Below, piece after piece: positions 8,626-50,912 of a stretch of DNA of 64,000 nucleotides. Source of the stretch: Paludisphaera soli (GTDB taxonomy: Bacteria; Planctomycetota; Planctomycetia; Isosphaerales; Isosphaeraceae); NCBI RefSeq assembly GCF_011064595.1, contig NZ_JAALJI010000012.1:1-64000 (forward strand). Direction: 5' to 3'. The notes under the pieces were generated by a model. That model was not told where the DNA came from and made no database searches. It saw nothing but the letters and a program-made list of their open reading frames with translations. Position 1 is the first letter of the stretch, and each line of letters begins with the position of its first letter. The position numbers and the translations under genes were made by a program.

Positions 8626-11040
8626 TCATTCGGGATAGATGAGGTAGCGCTCGCGGACGGCTTCGAACTCGGCGAGCCCCTGGGTCCAGAGGGCCTCGAT
8701 CTGATCGAGGCCCTTGAGGTCGAGGATCGCCTGGTAGGTGGCCTCGTTCGCGAGGAGCGTGGGCATGCGCTCGGGCTTCCACGCATCCTTGTAGTCCTTG
8801 CGGAGCGTCAGGGCCAGGGCCAGGCCCAGCTTGAGCGGGTCGAAGGCGGCGCGGTCGGTGATCTGGATCTGCACGCCGCCGCACTTCTCCCCCTTGTACT
8901 GACGCTCGGTCGGCGAGAACTCCAGGGGGGTGAAGCTGACCCCCGGCACGCCCTGGGCGTCGAGCGAGCGGGCCCAGTCGACCGGCCGGATCCAGGGCGC
9001 CCCCACGCGCTCGAAGGGGGTGTCGGTGCCGCGGCCGGTGGCCAGGTTGGTCCCTTCGAGCCAGCCCACGCCGGGGTACAGCAGGGCCTCGGTCAGGCTC
9101 CGCATGTTGGGCGAGGGGTTCACCCAGAGCAGGCCCGTGCGGTCGTAGGCGGCGGCTCGGTTCCAGCCCTCGCAGGGGACGACCTCCAGGTCGGCCTCGA
9201 TCTTCCGCTCGGCGTTGTACATCTTCGCCAGCTCGCCCACGGTCATGCCGTGGCGGATGGGGATCCGGTGGTAGGCGACGAACGACTCGACCTTCTCATC
9301 CCGCAGCGGGCCGCCGACCGAGACGCCGTCGATCGCGTTGGGGCGGTCGAGGACGACCACCTTCTTGCCGTTGGCCTTGGCCGCCTCCAGCACCAGGCCC
9401 AGGGTAGCGATGTAGGTGTAGTAGCGGACGCCGATGTCCTGGATGTCGTAGACCAGGACGTCGAGGTCGGCGACGTCCTCGTCTTGCGGCTTGCGCTTCT
9501 TGCCCTCGTAGAGGCTGATCACGGGGAGCCTGGTCGCCTCGTCGACGGCGTCGGTGATCTTCTCCTGGTCGAGCGCGCCGCGGATCCCGTGCTCGGGGCT
9601 GAACAGCTTGACGAGCTGGACCTCGGGGGCGGCGAACAGGACGTCGATGGTGGATCGGCCGTCTGCCGAGCGGCCGGTGTGGTTCGTCACCAGGCCGACC
9701 TTCTTCCCCTTGAGCGAATCGAACCCCCGCGCCGCCAGCACGTCGATGCCGCAGACGACGGGCGAGGGCCGTTCTGGGCGAGATTCGGGCTCGGCGGCCG
9801 ACTCGGATTCGGCCGGGGCCTGGTAGGCCGGCGGGTCGACCAGCGCCGCGGCGGCCAGGGTGGCGACCTCGCGACGGAGCGACGACGGCGAGGGGTTGGA
9901 CTTCGGGTGCAGGCGGCTCGACAGGATGACGACGAACGTCTGGGTCTCCGGGTCGATCCAGATGCTGGTGCCGGTGAAGCCGGTGTGGCCGAAGCTCGAA
10001 GGGCCGAAGAGGTCCCCCTTGGGGCTGCTGAAGCCGGTCGCCACGTCCCATCCCAGGCCGCGACGCTGCCCCGCCGGGGTGGTCGCCGGGTCGCGCATCA
10101 GGCGGACCGTGAGCGGGGCGAGGACGCGCGATCCCGAGGGGGCTGCGCCGTCGTCCAGGAGCATCCGGGCGAAGGCGGCCACGTCGTCGGCGGTGGCGAA
10201 GAGGCCGGCATGGCCCGCCACGCCGCCGAGCGCCCGCGAGCGCGGGTCGTGGACGACGCCCCGGACGTAGGCGTCCCCTTCCTTCTCGGTCGGGGCCACG
10301 CGCTCCAGGGCCGGCCACTTCGAGGCGTCGCCGCCGACGGGCCGGAAGTGGGCGTCGACCATCCCGGCGGGGCCGAACACCCGCTCGCTCGCGAACTGGT
10401 CGAGCGGCAGGCCCGAGACCTTCTCCACGAGCTTGCCCAGGATAATGAAGCCGACGTCCGAATAGAGGAACTTCGTCCCCGGGCGGGCCACCGGCTGCAG
10501 CTCGGCGATCCGCTTCCAGGCCGCTTCGGGGCCGTCCTTGTAGTCGCCGATCGCGTTGTCCGGGATCAGCCCGGCGCGGTGACGCAGCAGGTGGTCGACG
10601 GTGATCCGCCCCTTGCCGTGGTTGTCCAGCTCGGGAAAGTACTTCACGATCGGGTCGGACGGCCGGACCTTCCCCTCCTCGATCAGGACCATGACCGAGC
10701 TGGCCGTGGCGATCGGCTTGGTGAGCGAGGCCATGTCGAAGATCGTGTCGCGGGTCATGGGCTCCGAGGTCGGTTCGACGGCCCGGCGGCCGAAGGTCTT
10801 CGCGTACGCCACCCCGCCGCCGCGACCGACCAGGACCACGGCCCCGGGGATCTGCTCCTCCGCGACCGCCTTCTCCACGACCGCGTCGATCCTCGCCAGG
10901 CGGTCGGCGTCGAAGCCGAGCTGCGCCGCGGTCTCGGCCGTCGGCGCAGTGACCTCCGAACCTCGCGCGATCGTCCCGCCCAGGCCGATCGTCGCGGCCG
11001 CGACCCACGCCGCGACCTGCTTGCCGTACCACTGTTTCAC
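8626..11040 (-). CDS. Serine hydrolase (class C beta-lactamase fold) fused to NamZ/DUF1343 exo-N-acetylmuramidase
   Basis: 804 residues with an N-terminal signal peptide. Domain one (about 40-400) is a penicillin-binding/serine hydrolase fold: S-L-T-K at 105-108 gives the nucleophile and lysine, Y-S-D at about 193-195 the tyrosine motif, and H-T-G at 352-354 the third motif. A short acidic linker leads to a DUF1343 domain (about 430-804) with LVTNHTGRSADGRST, LFSPEHGIRG, VYDIQDIGVRYYTYIATLG and LWVNPSPNMRSL. DUF1343 is the NamZ exo-beta-N-acetylmuramidase family, which removes terminal MurNAc from peptidoglycan fragments. The fusion suggests one exported enzyme that trims peptide or ester groups and then cleaves MurNAc in cell-wall turnover. 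The gene is convergent with the phosphatase. Confidence 0.88.
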   Translation of the reverse strand: MKQWYGKQVAAWVAAATIGLGGTIARGSEVTAPTAETAAQLGFDADRLARIDAVVEKAVAEEQIPGAVVLVGRGGGVAYAKTFGRRAVEPTSEPMTRDTIFDMASLTKPIATASSVMVLIEEGKVRPSDPIVKYFPELDNHGKGRITVDHLLRHRAGLIPDNAIGDYKDGPEAAWKRIAELQPVARPGTKFLYSDVGFIILGKLVEKVSGLPLDQFASERVFGPAGMVDAHFRPVGGDASKWPALERVAPTEKEGDAYVRGVVHDPRSRALGGVAGHAGLFATADDVAAFARMLLDDGAAPSGSRVLAPLTVRLMRDPATTPAGQRRGLGWDVATGFSSPKGDLFGPSSFGHTGFTGTSIWIDPETQTFVVILSSRLHPKSNPSPSSLRREVATLAAAALVDPPAYQAPAESESAAEPESRPERPSPVVCGIDVLAARGFDSLKGKKVGLVTNHTGRSADGRSTIDVLFAAPEVQLVKLFSPEHGIRGALDQEKITDAVDEATRLPVISLYEGKKRKPQDEDVADLDVLVYDIQDIGVRYYTYIATLGLVLEAAKANGKKVVVLDRPNAIDGVSVGGPLRDEKVESFVAYHRIPIRHGMTVGELAKMYNAERKIEADLEVVPCEGWNRAAAYDRTGLLWVNPSPNMRSLTEALLYPGVGWLEGTNLATGRGTDTPFERVGAPWIRPVDWARSLDAQGVPGVSFTPLEFSPTERQYKGEKCGGVQIQITDRAAFDPLKLGLALALTLRKDYKDAWKPERMPTLLANEATYQAILDLKGLDQIEALWTQGLAEFEAVRERYLIYPE

Positions 11041-11220
11041 GATCTTTCCACCCGTGTTGTCGACTCAAGGATCAGGTGAGGCCCCGGCGGCACCGAAGCC
11101 CCCATTCTAACGGCGGATCGAAGGTCCCGCGCCTCCCTGGCATGAGGGGTCGCGAGAGGCTCGACTCGATCCAAATCGGGGTGCCGGACCCGACGTCGCC
11201 GGCGTTCGAAATGAAAAAAA

Positions 11221-11840
11221 CCGGCCGCCGACCGGAACTTCCACGACGACCTCTCCCTTCGTCGTGGAAGTTCCGGTCAACGGACCGGTTGGCTCGGCAT
11301 ACTCTTCGGCATGAAGCCTTGAGGCGTTGGAAGAAACCGGATGCAGTCTGATCGCCAGCGACCGCCTCTCCCTCGGTCGCGGACAACCAGGCCGACAGCC
11401 GGTTGGCTCGCTGGCTCGACGCCCACTCAGGGAGGGCGGAACCTTTGTCCGAACCGGCCGAAGAATCGACTTCCCGCGACGACCTCTCCCTTCGCCGCGG
11501 GGAACCGTCTCCACCGACCGGTTGGCTCCATCGGGCTCGACGGGCCGCGTCACGGCCCGGAACCCACTCGTGTATCAACCGAACAGCAGATCCGCTCCGC
11601 CGCGACCGCCTCTCCCTCGGTCGCGACGAACCTCATCGAACTGCCGGTTGGCTCGCTGGCTCGACGCCCCCCGAGGGGGCGGAACCCGTTGTAAAAACCG
11701 GCCGGAGAACCGACTTCCCGCGACGACCTCTCCCTTCGCCGCGGGGAACCGTCTCCACCGACCGGTTGGCTCCATCAGGCTCGACGTCTCCCCCGCCTTT
11801 CGTGCCGGCGAGGGATCGGAACCTTTGTAAGAAAGGGCGA
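11221..11840. repeat. Tandem array of five structured ~120-nt units (candidate structured RNA)
   Basis: Five units are aligned on a constant CCTCTCCC loop (starting 11250, 11365, 11483, 11609, 11727). Each has (1) a hairpin of variable stem around that loop, 18 perfect base pairs in unit 1 (11232-11249 with 11259-11276); (2) CCGGTTGGCTC; (3) in units 2-5 a CTCGACG box, a second hairpin of changing sequence but kept pairing (CCC/GGG, GGGCCG/CGGCCC, CCCCC/GGGGG) and GGAACC. Units 3 and 5 match at 75 of 76 bases (11467-11542 and 11711-11786), exactly 244 bases apart; units 2 and 4 are also 244 apart. AACCGGCCG precedes units 1, 3 and 5. Open frames across it only translate the repeat. Strand is undetermined. 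Confidence 0.8.
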
Positions 11841-11874
11841 GCGGGGGGTCGTGCGAGGCATCCCGCTCGCCCTT
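11832..11874. repeat. Inverted repeat closing the tandem array
   Basis: AAAGGGCGAGCGGG (11832-11845) pairs with CCCGCTCGCCCTTT (about 11862-11875) around a 16-base loop, a perfect stem directly after the last array unit. A second small hairpin, ATCGTT with AACGAT, follows at about 11885-11899. No T-tract follows on either strand, so a classical intrinsic terminator is not evident. It could be a boundary or processing structure of the array transcript. Confidence 0.65.
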
Positions 11875-11899
11875 TGGCGGGGCAATCGTTAAAAACGAT

Positions 11900-12431
11900 C
11901 GTCGCCAGTGGGGTGGCTTCTTGTAAGTGTTTCGAGCCTCTCGGCCCGCGAGTGGTTCCTGACCTAACCTCTGAACTGGTTTGACTTTTCGTCTCACACT
12001 TTCGTGTCTCTCGTCTCGACGCCAGGAGTAAAAAGCAAAGGCAGTGCCAGAACCAGGAATCGCGGCGTCTCAAGTCGGCACGGGGCCCGATCGGCGGCCG
12101 GCGGATTCGCGGAATCCCAAGCCATTCCGAATCTTAAGACGTTCGAAGAATTTTCGATCGGGGCTGCGAATTTTCGCCCGGCCACGTTTCTTCAACACTT
12201 CTCCATCAGCGGAACACGGGCGGCCGCACAAGATCCAGGCACGGCCTGCCGAATAGATCAACAACGCCCCTCGGACGCACGCTCGATCAGCGGCTCGAGC
12301 CTTCGCAATTCGAAGTTCGGGGGGAGGCCATGGGGTCGCGGGGTCGTTCAAGGGGAGCGAGAGAGGGAATCTCTGGGCATTCCGGCCCAGGTTCCTCGCT
12401 TGCGAGAGAGACGTGGAGGCCGACTCCGAAC
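11900..12431. other. Intergenic region upstream of hypothetical gene
   Basis: Locally less GC-rich than its surroundings, with segments such as GTTCGAAGAATTTTCGATCG near 12140. No credible gene is seen on either strand: the small open frames lack planctomycete-like composition and ribosome-binding sites. It may hold the promoter of the gene at 12432. Confidence 0.4.
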
Positions 12432-13706
12432 ATGATGGATGGACAGGAGCCGCGTCCGGCCCCGCGCGAGGAACTCGCCCGGGCCGTCGACGCCTGGAAC
12501 GATCGGGGCGAAGCTTCCTCTCTGGAAGGCTGGCTGGGCCGGGAACTCGACGAGCCCGGAAACCCGGGGCGGCTCCCGCTCGCGGAGTGGGCCGAAGCTC
12601 TCGGGCTGCTCGCCCGCGCCCGGACCTCGCGGGCCGGCTGGCCGCGCGGGCTCGACCGCCGGCTGACCGACTTCCTGAGGATGCTCCTCCGGTTCTCCCG
12701 CCCCGACGGGCGGACGGCGGCGCTGGAATCCGATCGTCCCGCGCCACCTGCTCCCCGCGCTTTCTGGCGGGGCCTTGCCGCGGCCTTCCCCGAGCCCGAC
12801 GTGGCCCGGGTCCTCGACTGGTGGTTCCCCGGCCGCGACGTCGAGCCCGTGCCGCCACCCCTCCCCGCCTGGTCGAGCCCGCACTCGGCGCTGGGCGTCT
12901 TGCGGGCGGACTGGACGCCGAGGGGGGATCTCGTCGCGTTCGATCAACGCGAGGAGTCGTCGGCCGCCCGCTTCGAGGTCTTCGGCTCGGGCGTCTCCTG
13001 GCTGGGGCCGCGATGGCGGACGACCGATGCGGCCGGGGACGAGCCGACGACCGCTTCGAAAGCCGTCCCTTCGGCCTGGTCGACCAGTTCCGGCGCCGAC
13101 GTGGCCGAGTGGACGTTCCAGGCCGGCGACCTGCGCGTCACCAGACTGGCCCTGATGCTCCGAGGCCGACGCGCGGCGATCCTCGCCGACCTGATCGAAG
13201 GCGGATCGAGCGCCGTTGCGAGGGAGATGCGGCTGACGATCCCCGAGGGGAGGACCGTGGAAGCCCTGCCCGGCACGAAGGCCCTGCGCCTGCGTCCCGC
13301 CGCCCCGGCCCGTTCCGCGCAGATCATCCCGATCGGCCAGCCGGCCGAGACTCTCGGCGGGACCGGCCGGCTCACTTACGACGATTCGACGCGCGAGATC
13401 CGCCTGATCCAGGCGACGTCGGGGGGTCGGGCGTGGCTCCCCTTGCTGGTCTCCTGGGACCACGCGCGGAACAAGAAGGCCTTGGTGTGGAAGTCCCTGA
13501 CGGTCGCCGAACAGGGCAAGGCCTGCTCCCCGGAGACGGCCTGGGCCGCTCGGGTGAGCTGGGCGAAGGCCGAGACCTTCGTGATCTACCGCAGCCTCGG
13601 CCCGGCCGCGCGGAGGTCGTTCCTGGGCTTTACGACCACCGCCCGATTCATGATCGGCCGGTTCACGCCCGAGGGGGACGTGGACGTGATCGCGTCCCTG
13701 GACTGA
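12432..13706 (+). CDS. Hypothetical protein, heparinase-like C-terminal flavour
   Basis: 424 residues from the ATG at 12432, with GTGGAGG at 12413-12419; upstream open sequence looks non-coding. There is no signal peptide or membrane span. The protein is rich in Trp, Arg and Ala, with LDWWFPGRDVEP, LGVLRADWTPRGDLVAFD and a beta-rich second half (AEWTFQAGDLRVTRLALML, AAILADLIEGG). The ADW.P..D...D segment recalls heparinase II/III-like proteins, but no catalytic set is visible, so I leave the function open. It lies next to the tandem structured array, in the same direction as the array as written; no operon partner is apparent, and the next gene is convergent. Confidence 0.65.
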   Translation: MMDGQEPRPAPREELARAVDAWNDRGEASSLEGWLGRELDEPGNPGRLPLAEWAEALGLLARARTSRAGWPRGLDRRLTDFLRMLLRFSRPDGRTAALESDRPAPPAPRAFWRGLAAAFPEPDVARVLDWWFPGRDVEPVPPPLPAWSSPHSALGVLRADWTPRGDLVAFDQREESSAARFEVFGSGVSWLGPRWRTTDAAGDEPTTASKAVPSAWSTSSGADVAEWTFQAGDLRVTRLALMLRGRRAAILADLIEGGSSAVAREMRLTIPEGRTVEALPGTKALRLRPAAPARSAQIIPIGQPAETLGGTGRLTYDDSTREIRLIQATSGGRAWLPLLVSWDHARNKKALVWKSLTVAEQGKACSPETAWAARVSWAKAETFVIYRSLGPAARRSFLGFTTTARFMIGRFTPEGDVDVIASLD

Positions 13707-43930: not shown

Positions 43931-46900
43931 ATGATTTTCCAAGATCAGAGCGCAGCGTGGAAATCTCGATCGACGGCGGCCTCGGCGGGGCAGGCCGGGT
44001 CCCGGACGCGGCGATCGCCCGTCAGGCCGAGCCTGGAGCCTTGCGAGGAGCGCGTCCTGATGGCGTCCATCCTGGGCGCGGCGCAGACCTTCGCGGTGCT
44101 CGGCGGCTCGACGGTGACCAACACCGGCCCCACCGCGATCGTCGGCGACCTGGGGGTGAGCCCCGGCTCCGCCGTCACCGGCTTCCCGCCGGGGGTCGTG
44201 ACGAGCGGGACGATCCACGCGAACGACGCCAGGGCGGTCGCGGCCCACTCCGCCGCCGCCGCGGCGTACGCGATCATCGCGGGCGAGACATCGCCCCCCG
44301 CCAACGACCTGACCGGCCAGGACCTCCGCGGTCTGACGCTCTTGCCTGGAGTCTACTCCTTCGACACCTCGGCCGCGCTGACGGGGATCCTCACCCTGGA
44401 CGCCGGCGGCGACCCGAACGCCCGCTTCGACTTCCAGATCGGGTCCACGCTGATCACCGGGAGTGGATCCTCGGTCGTCCTCATCAACTCCGGCCAGAAT
44501 GAGAACGTCTACTTCCAGGTCGGCACGTCGGCGACCCTCGGGACGAACACCGCCTTCCAGGGGAACATCCTGGCGGACCAGAGCATCACGATCACCACCG
44601 GCGCGAGCCTCCAGGGTCGCGCCCTGGCGATCAACGGCGCGGTGACGCTGGATACGAACCAGATCACCGCCGCCCAGGCCGACCTCTCGGCGACCAAGGT
44701 CGTCGCGTCCGCCCAGGCAGTCGCCGGGGCCCCGCTCGCCTACACCGTCACCGTGGCCAACGCCGGCCCGAGCGCCGCCCTCGAAGTCGCCCTGGCCGAC
44801 CTCGTCCCGGCGGGGACGACGTTCCTGTCCGCGGTCCAGACCGCCGGGCCGACCTTCACCCTCGCGACGCCCGCCGTCGGCGGCACCGGGGCGATCGGCG
44901 GCACGCTCGCGTCGCTGGCATCGGGCGCATCGGCCACCTTCACCATCACCGTGATGATCGCGCCGTCGCTCGCCGACGCCACGGTGATCTCGAACACGGC
45001 CTCGGTCTCCTCTACCACCATCGACCCGGATCCCGAGAACAACTCCCAGACGGCGACCATCTCCTCGGCGACGTCAGCCGACCTGGCCGTCACCAAGACC
45101 ATCACGTCCGGACCGCCCGTCGCCGGTCAGGCGTTGAGCTACCTGATCACCGTGACGAACGACGGCCCCAGCGACGCGCAGGGCGTCGCCCTGGCCGACC
45201 TCGTGCCCGTAGGTGCCACGTTCCTGGCGATCGCGCAGACTACCGGCCCGGCGTTCGCGTTGACGACCCCGGCCGTCGGCGGCACGGGAGCGATCTCAGG
45301 CACGCTCGGCACGCTCCTCTCGGGGGCCTCGGCCAGCTTCGTCCTCACCGTGCTGCTGCCACCGTCGCTTCCCGAAGGCACTTTGGTGGTGAACACGGCC
45401 AGCTTCTCCGCGGCCACCACCGACCCCGACCCGACGAACAACTCGCAGACCGCGAGCGCGGCCGCCTCAGCCCTCGCCGACCTGGCCGTCACGAAGTCGA
45501 TCGCGTCCGGCCCCCTCGTCGCCGGACAGTCGTTGACCTACCTGATCACGGTGGCGAACGTCGGCCCCAGCGACGCGCTGGGCGTCGCGCTGTCCGACCT
45601 CATCCCCTCCGGCGCCACGTTCATCTCGATCGCGCAGCCGACCGGCCCGGCGTTCGCGCTGACGACGCCGGCCGCGGGGAGCGGGGGCGCGATCTCCGGC
45701 ACGCTGGCCACGCTCTCCTCGGGCGCCTCGGCCAGCTTCCTCGTCACCGTGATGCTCTCCCCATCGATCCCCGCCGGGACGCAGGTGGCGAACACGGCCA
45801 GCTTCTCCGCGGCCACCACGGACCTCGACCCCGCCAACAACTCGCAGACCGCCGCCGCAGCCGTCTCCGCCTTGGCCGACCTGGCCGTCACGAAGACGAT
45901 CGCGTCCGCCCAGGCCGTCGCCGGCGAGGCGCTGGTCTACACGATCACCGTGACGAACGTCGGCCCCAGCGACGCCGTGGGCGTCTCCTTGGCCGACCTC
46001 GCTCCCGTCGGCCTCACGTTCCTCTCGGTCGTCCAGACGGGCGGACCGGCCTTCACGTTGACGACGCCGCCCGTGGGCGGAGCCGGATCGATCTCCGGGA
46101 CGCTGGCCTCGCTCGCGGCCGGCGTTTCGGCGAGCTTCACGGTCACCATGTTGCTGTCGGCCGCAGCCCCCGATGGGGCCGTCGTGGTCAACACGGCCTC
46201 GGTCTCGGCGGCCACGACGGACCTCGACCCCGCCAACAACTCGCAGTCGGCCGCCGCCCTCGTGGCCACCCGGGCCGACGTCGCGGTCGTCAAGACGATC
46301 GCATCGGGCCAGGCCGCCGCCGGGGCGCCGCTGGTCTACACGATCACCGTGACGAACGTCGGCCCCAGCGACGCCGCGACGGTCTCGCTGGCCGACCTCG
46401 TCCCCGCCGGGACGTCGTTCCTCTCGGTGGTCCAGACCTCGGGGCCGGCCTTCGGCCTTTCCAGCCCGGCGGTCGGCGGCACGGGCTCGATCGCCGGCAT
46501 CATCGGGACGCTGGCCTCGGGGGCCTCGGCGAGCTTCACCATCACGGTGCTGGTGTCGGCCGCGACGCCCGAGGGGACCCAGGTGGTCAACACGGCCACC
46601 GTCTCGGCCGCCACGTTCGACCCGAATCTCGCGAACAACACCCAGTCGGTCACCGCCTCCGTGAGCGCGGTCGTGCCGCCGATCACGCCGACGTCGCCCG
46701 TCGTCGTGGCCGTCGAGCGGTTCGGCATCCACGCCCAGCCGACGATCCTGGTGATCGGGTTCAGCACCCCGCTCGATGCAGCTCGGGCTCAGGACGTGGC
46801 GAACTATGGGATTACGTCCCTGGGAGGCCCCGGGCAGGGAGGGAACCGCAGGGGCGTCGTCATCAACGTGACCGGGGCGACGTATGATCCGATCGCTCGG

Positions 46901-49790: not shown

Positions 49791-50912
49791 ATGAACAGGC
49801 GATTGAGTTTCCGCCCGGCGTTGTCCGACCGCCTGGAAGACCGGATCGTCATGAGCGTCGCCGGCCTCCACCGGCCGGCGCTGGTCGGGGAGTTGCTCCG
49901 CGGCGCGAACGGCCTCGCGTCGCAGGCCGCCGGCGCATCGACGAGCACGACGCCGACCTCGGCGACGGTCCTCTTCAACGGCCGGCTGCCGACCCGAGGC
50001 TCGGGCAACGCCCGGCTCGTCTTCACGGTCTACGACAGGGCAAGCGGCGGGACGGCGCTTTATCAGGAAGTCCAGACGGTCCCCGTCGCCCAGGGCGGCT
50101 ATCAGGCGTATCTCGGTCGGGGCACGGCCGAGGGCCTCCCGCCCTCGCTCGGCGTAGGCCGCGACTCGCTCTACGTCTCCGTCGCCCGTGCCGGACGTCC
50201 CCAGCATCCACTCGGTCAGCGGATCGCCCTGGCGGCGTCCGCCTTCACGCTGACGCCCGACCCCGTCCCGGGGCCTCCCGGCCCGCAGGGCGAACCAGGC
50301 CCCCAGGGCGAACCCGGGACTCAAGGCCCGCAGGGGCCGCAGGGAACCCCTGGCGTCCAGGGACCCCAAGGCGTTCCGGGTATGCGAGGCCCGCAAGGCG
50401 ACCCCGGCGTCCAGGGCCCGGAAGGCGACCCCGGCGTCCAGGGCCCGCAGGGCGATCCCGGGGTCCAGGGGCCGCAGGGCGACCCCGGGCCGACGGGGCC
50501 GGTCGGCCCGCAAGGTCCCACCGGGGTCGTGCAGACGGCCTTCGCGACGGGGACCATGGCGAATCCCGACGCGGGGAACACCTTCATCGGCCCGACGGTC
50601 GACGTCACGATCCAGGACGGCGACCAGATCTACATCCAGGCGACCGCCACGATGGGGAGTTTCATCTCCCTCGGCGCGGGGGGGCTCACCCTGAGCCTGA
50701 ACTACTCCTCCGGAGGCGGTGCGTTGACGCCCGTCGTGTCGTATGCCGGACTGAGCGTCGGCCCGGGCGAGAAGACCATCTTCCCGCTCAACGCCCTGAT
50801 CACCGGGCTCGCGGCCGGCACCTACACGGTCGGCGTCTCGGGGGCGTCCATCGACCCGATGTGGACGAACCAGGGCACCGGGACGATCACGGCGATGGTC
50901 CTCCGGACCTGA
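49791..50912 (+). CDS. Collagen-like surface protein
   Basis: 373 residues from the ATG at 49791 with AAGGA eleven bases upstream. The N-terminus carries the planctomycete motif [16 protein letters not shown], also used by the DUF11 protein. After a beta-rich part ([20 protein letters not shown] and [16 protein letters not shown]), 28 uninterrupted Gly-X-Y triplets run from [15 protein letters not shown] to GPTGVV, with many GDPGVQGPQ units. A C-terminal beta domain of about 120 residues ([20 protein letters not shown]) resembles trimerising heads of bacterial collagens. It should form a triple-helical stalk at the surface. The divergent sigma/thioredoxin gene 222 bases away may control it. 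Confidence 0.88.

Follow-up and report, generated by a model that had tools for sequence, protein, structure and literature searches.

A predicted sigma-54-linked non-coding RNA gene with a tandemly amplified, constant-loop hairpin in Isosphaeraceae

The stretch of Paludisphaera soli DNA analyzed here (64,000 nucleotides; the window) contains a tandem array of five related hairpin-forming units, raising the questions of whether these repeats belong to a functional RNA, from which strand it would be read and how it might act. The five units occupy positions 11219–11833. On the plus strand, CCTCTCCC lies at 11250, 11365, 11483, 11609 and 11727, followed in every unit by CCGGTTGGCTC. The initial annotation described an exact 244-bp dimer period; this holds for the loops of alternate units (11365–11609 and 11483–11727), but over their full length alternate units (1 with 3 and 2 with 4, numbered along the transcript) share only 81–82% identity, compared with 65–70% for the remaining pairs, so the duplicated 244-bp dimer is an old one whose copies have diverged in part. 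A pattern search of the genome found no further copy of CCTCTCCC outside the array, and two models built in this analysis, R1 for the GGGAGAGG hairpin and R2 for the leader, detected no other genuine copy, the second R2 match (L146) being a terminator-like hairpin.

Folding, base-pair composition and flanking signals all point to the minus strand as the sense strand. The window units fold at –70, –63, –67, –64 and –72 kcal/mol on the minus strand and at –64, –47, –50, –46 and –54 kcal/mol on the plus strand, and among 31 units taken from six same-genus genomes, 30 likewise fold more stably on the minus strand (mean –58.9 vs –47.6 kcal/mol). Reading a true helix from the wrong strand would invert the ratio of G–U wobbles to A–C mismatches; the minus reading gives 51 wobbles and nine mismatches. 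On these results, together with the direction of the promoter and terminator, a plus-strand reading was rejected. The idea that a C-rich plus-strand loop pairs with ribosome-binding sites is therefore not likely, since the strand evidence favors the minus strand, which exposes GGGAGAGG.

The pairings initially proposed for the second hairpin are correct and extend, on the minus strand, to a GGUUC/GAGCC closing stem with a constant 2-nt bulge. Each unit thus comprises this variable small hairpin followed by a long hairpin of ~35 bp, AACCGG...N-GGGAGAGG...CCGGUU, whose GGGAGAGG loop is invariant across the five units of the window. Among the 31 units of the six genomes, counted on a sequence-only alignment, the minus-strand helices are paired in 95.7% of cells, compared with 20.9–46.9% for slid partners, and double-change cells number 66 vs 22 in shuffles; the covariation noticed at the outset is thus real and above the slid and shuffled background. 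RNAalifold reports compensatory change in 14 of 22 pairs, and the array with its flanking DNA folds 5.8 SD below shuffles on the plus strand. Across the family (one hairpin per genus), flank pairing reaches 0.89, as compared with 0.65 when the right arms are shuffled among genera. The GGGAGAGG loop is present in 73 of 76 scanned hits, the exceptions being one genuine unit and two chance hits, on closing pairs of about nine forms; the base before GGGAGAGG is A, U, G or C across the family, and the loop measures 9 nt.

In a comparison of six same-genus loci, conservation runs far upstream on the minus strand. The array is the 3′ part of a predicted non-coding RNA gene of ~810 nt, in which a sigma-54 promoter, a leader box, two leader hairpins, the five units and a T7 terminator follow in order (Table 1). 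The five units drawn by the initial annotation are therefore part of a larger element that reaches ~12024, with upstream sites to 12253. The promoter, assigned to sigma-54 by consensus, is the strongest single result. Its GG and GC are invariant, and all 46 aligned family loci have a matching site, 148–205 nt upstream of the L2 loop; 44 carry the strict pattern and the other two carry one-letter variants, whereas the complete locus sequences, 1.08 Mb over both strands, contain 47 strict matches in total. RpoN is present as one copy in each of 30 relatives searched. The candidate activator site recurs at the same position in other same-genus loci, weaker in G003, and allowing up to three mismatches it is confined to the RNA locus in five of six genomes. 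Being present at the RNA locus alone, it was rejected as a clue to a regulon shared with other genes. No upstream motif stood clearly above shuffles family-wide.

Within the leader, the L2 loop is nearly invariant in 37 loci (alignment A4), and its stem shows compensatory changes in L059 and L083. A kissing interaction of the L2 loop (CCUC) with the hp1 loop (GAGG) was considered and rejected, as it is lost in L130 and L131, where L2 is GCCUUCGCACGACGA and hp1 is intact. At the 3′ end, the stem of unit 5 is long and perfectly paired, with seven T after it, and scored as a terminator-like site; first described as an array unit, which it is, unit 5 also doubles as the terminator. T-tract richness is 6.3 of 8 in last units and 4.5 of 8 in internal units, many of which carry a partial T-tract of their own. 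With its own predicted promoter and terminator and non-fixed neighbors, the gene has the features of a standalone sRNA. No Rfam family matched the RNA at the gathering threshold, at which the lone match was a tRNA, and a relaxed scan of the window returned merely chance-level miRNA/SECIS-type matches, in agreement with the earlier statement that no named RNA family has this layout. The RNA gene is previously undescribed.

Table 1. Predicted features of the RNA gene in the window, in transcript order
Feature	Position	Strand	Basis
Candidate activator (enhancer-binding-protein) site TTCGGCAGGCCGTGCCTGGATCTTGTGC, inverted-repeat-like, ~180–200 bp upstream of promoter	12226–12253	–	Genus conservation
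Sigma-54 promoter TGGCACTGCCTTTGC, –24 GG, –12 GC; predicted transcription start ~12024	12035–12049	–	Consensus match
Leader box CACTTACAAGAAGCCACCCC, conserved	11910–11929	–	Alignment of loci across family
Leader hairpin L1 (UGGCGAC...CGCCA)	11875–11907	–	Alignment A4, model R2
Leader hairpin L2, stem AAAGGGCGAGCGGG/CCCGCUCGCCCUUU, loop GCCUCGCACGACC nearly invariant; base 11875 common with L1 as drawn	11832–11875	–	Alignment A4, model R2
Unit 1, small hairpin and GGGAGAGG hairpin, loop 11727–11734	11696–11831	–	Folding, covariation
Unit 2, loop 11609–11616	11577–11695	–	Folding, covariation
Unit 3, loop 11483–11490	11452–11576	–	Folding, covariation
Unit 4, loop 11365–11372	11335–11451	–	Folding, covariation
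Unit 5, last on transcript, loop 11250–11257; long perfect stem is terminator stem	11219–11334	–	Folding, terminator-like site
T7 tract completing intrinsic terminator	11214–11220	–	Sequence

The RNA gene is present in all 21 sampled genera of Isosphaeraceae, with Aquisphaera insulae, Tautonia sociabilis and Isosphaeraceae MAGs among the carriers. These homologues, along with the covariation, the conserved promoter and terminator and the absence of an Rfam match, bear out the earlier proposal of a candidate novel non-coding RNA. Model R1 matched 29 of 45 family genomes and R2 matched 39 of 45 (20 of 21 genera), with rough E-values and genomes of uneven completeness; on reading, L010 and L104 (coding) and L142–L146 (terminator-like hairpins) were discarded as chance. 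In the two genomes read from genus g6, a weak R1 hairpin whose loop is identical lies 162 nt downstream of a sigma-54 site, and the leader is unrecognizable. Most genera have one GGGAGAGG hairpin per locus, L139 and L141 have two, L051, L052 and Aquisphaera insulae/Aquisphaera-like genomes have four, and the genus of the window has 3–7, leaving aside as chance one additional match in L032 and the match in L138. The copy numbers thus indicate that the five-unit array is a lineage-specific amplification of the hairpin. The array noted initially is real but is not the defining feature of the RNA, since the usual state among relatives is a single unit together with the conserved leader, which had gone unnoticed. 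Three family lineages retain a leader copy without a GGGAGAGG hairpin. In L136, L137 and L138, a sigma-54 promoter and conserved leader, lacking GGGAGAGG hairpins, lie upstream of an ORF, which in L137 encodes a CitMHS_2-family transporter. In L127, L128 and L129 the leader hairpin module is tandemly duplicated, with no GGGAGAGG hairpin after two of them.

A conserved 458-aa protein without a Pfam match is encoded divergently from the RNA gene (12330–13706, plus strand) and lies beside the RNA in 32 of 46 loci, followed in the window by a YggS-like and then an aroA-like gene. By comparison, the downstream genes vary between genera, with a fucose-isomerase-like gene in G004 and an opposite-strand gene in Tautonia. 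This retention of the upstream gene amid changing downstream genes marks the RNA as an independent gene that has long occupied this position. The gene immediately downstream of the RNA in the window, on the minus strand, encodes a beta-lactamase-type domain fused to exo-N-acetylmuramidase NamZ (8626–11040; PF00144, PF07075 and PF20732).

A class-wide R1 search gave nine matches outside Isosphaeraceae, all in one family (f3), which we suspect to be Gemmataceae from its position next to Isosphaeraceae. The f3 version is compact (~65 nt): a sigma-54 site is followed by a single GGGAGAGG-loop hairpin (two in L187), a GGCGAGAGCC mini-hairpin is often present too, and many copies have a T-tract. The arrangement of a sigma-54 site, 25–55 nt and GGGAGAGG has 100 matches in 95 f3 genomes, compared with 24 for the reversed pattern, in family tallies made by eye of which about a quarter of the f3 matches may be chance; there are apparently up to six per genome (G142), and other families show no clear excess. 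When 30 f3 loci were read, the motif fell within the loop of a hairpin, by a hairpin test, in 20. Dispersed short sigma-54-linked hairpins showing GGGAGAGG or GGGGAGAGG, several per genome, were observed at L188–L217 of f3. By sequence, the Isosphaeraceae and f3 RNAs may be either homologous or convergent in their loops.

The gene, its strand, structure, promoter consensus, terminator, conservation and amplification are legible in the sequence, and from there we infer that the RNA is transcribed and acts in trans on a partner. The constant loop on changing stems, the shared sigma-54 switch, the sibling and tandem copies and the variable copy number argue for an RNA that acts in trans by offering sites for a partner to bind. 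Our best explanation, to which we assign a probability of about 0.5, is a sigma-54-dependent regulatory RNA that titrates a partner through its GGGAGAGG loops. An activator at the candidate upstream site would switch on RNA polymerase–sigma-54 at the promoter, producing a transcript of ~810 nt in which the conserved leader (L1 and L2) precedes five stable GGGAGAGG-displaying hairpins and which would end at the intrinsic terminator. Every loop would be a putative site for one common partner, which the RNA would draw away from its normal targets. Extra hairpins would give greater binding capacity, which would explain a genus amplifying the hairpin while the loop stayed fixed. Titration is favored since repeating the hairpin in tandem with its loop unaltered supplies more capacity but hardly anything else. 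By comparison, single-hairpin versions would be weak sponges unless highly expressed, and the three lineages with a leader but no GGGAGAGG hairpin also count against titration.

Known RNAs resemble this design in part. CsrB/CsrC and RsmX/Y/Z of Gammaproteobacteria likewise carry repeated hairpins with GGA in the loops, here five GGGAGAGG loops, at a single locus or as redundant siblings, in genomes that encode CsrA. The window RNA differs from them in its sigma-54 promoter, 9-nt fixed-GGGAGAGG loop, very stable long stems and separate conserved leader; the first A of ANGGA is not conserved, there is no hexaloop and the sequence is unrelated. CrcZ and CrcY of Pseudomonas and Azotobacter depend on RpoN and act by sequestering an RNA-binding protein (PMC6292655, PMC4063720). 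An RpoN-type promoter is likewise found here, by consensus in 46 of 46 loci, but Hfq, the partner of CrcZ, was found in none of the 30 genomes searched, which removes this partner and weakens classical Hfq-assisted pairing. The CrcZ binding motifs are A-rich and unpaired, in contrast to the GGGAGAGG hairpins. LhrC1-5 and CcsR1-4 are tandem or dispersed sibling sRNAs with a common C/U-rich loop motif and shared control; our RNA resembles them in having copies with one loop motif but differs in its G/A-rich sense loop, and it is not known to be homologous to them.

The main rival to titration is base pairing through the loop, with GGGAGAGG as an antisense seed for CCUCUCCC, in sites of the CCUCUCC type carried by several mRNAs or by a further sRNA; the tandem units would then supply more seeds or be processed into separate sRNAs. 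We regard this as somewhat unlikely. The whole 8-mer is fixed, exceeding the needs of a GGA-binding protein, and both the partial T-tracts of many internal units and the recurrence of the loop in the dispersed f3 siblings would suit a seed; however, Hfq is absent from all 30 genomes, a purine-rich loop is unusual as a seed, and the L2-loop complement (GGTCGTGCGAGG) is not enriched over a reversed control, for which reason a target complementary to the L2 loop was also rejected. A special case of titration, still less likely, makes CsrA itself the partner, as in a CsrB/RsmZ-like sponge. The genome of the window (G000) has ~10 CsrA-family matches and all 59 relatives have multiple copies (2–17 each); GGA occurs in the hairpin loop of every unit, and Hfq was not found. 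Three CsrA proteins read from this genome retain L4 and R44, which are critical for RNA binding, and CsrA recognizes an ANGGA core, reportedly preferring hexaloops and hairpins of moderate stability (PMC7652899). Here, by comparison, the motif is fixed at N and in the bases that follow GGA but variable at the A of ANGGA, the loops are 9 nt rather than 6, the stems are very stable, and CsrA is equally present in families where the RNA was not found. The CsrA family is thus a plausible partner and the leading named candidate, and membership of the CsrB/Rsm group is not claimed because the A-N-GGA core is not conserved.

Two further readings leave trans action aside. That the RNA is a cis-acting leader or attenuator of the downstream gene is improbable: the hairpin-less leader copies of L136–L138 precede an ORF (identified in L137 as a CitMHS_2 transporter) and the NamZ/beta-lactamase gene follows the RNA on the same strand, but downstream genes differ in G004 and Tautonia, and the T-tract terminator ends the RNA. 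A repeat element, DNA-level structure or set of chance hairpins without RNA function could account for the 81–82% alternate identity, which resembles ordinary repeat expansion; this reading, the least probable, is already contradicted by the single locus in the genome, the conserved promoter, terminator and upstream synteny, the strand-asymmetric pairing and the covariation across 20 genera. We tentatively suggest, at somewhat less than even odds, that the GGGAGAGG-loop RNAs form a planctomycete-specific, Hfq-independent, sigma-54-controlled superfamily, comprising dispersed ~65-nt siblings in f3 and a leader-bearing, tandem-amplified long RNA in Isosphaeraceae, all recognized by a single conserved factor that binds the loop, perhaps a CsrA paralogue whose specificity has changed, perhaps another protein.

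Few regulatory RNAs are cataloged in Planctomycetes: a 2022 survey covering the entire PVC group counts 8 distinct sRNAs (PMC9029176), and our search for literature on Isosphaeraceae or Gemmata sRNAs found nothing relevant. An alignable family is now defined, with a predicted promoter class, a terminator and one constant loop, in hosts with many CsrA proteins and no detectable Hfq. It makes testable which factor handles planctomycete sRNAs and what sigma-54 signals to, and the natural variation from 1 to 7 copies, with the loop unchanged, lets titration by valency be tested on existing variants.

Elsewhere in the window, a coding-like 399-bp tandem repeat of 4.8 copies lies at 44703–46614, and a 27-bp repeat of ~6 copies at 50331–50488 encodes a collagen-like GPQGDPGV pattern.
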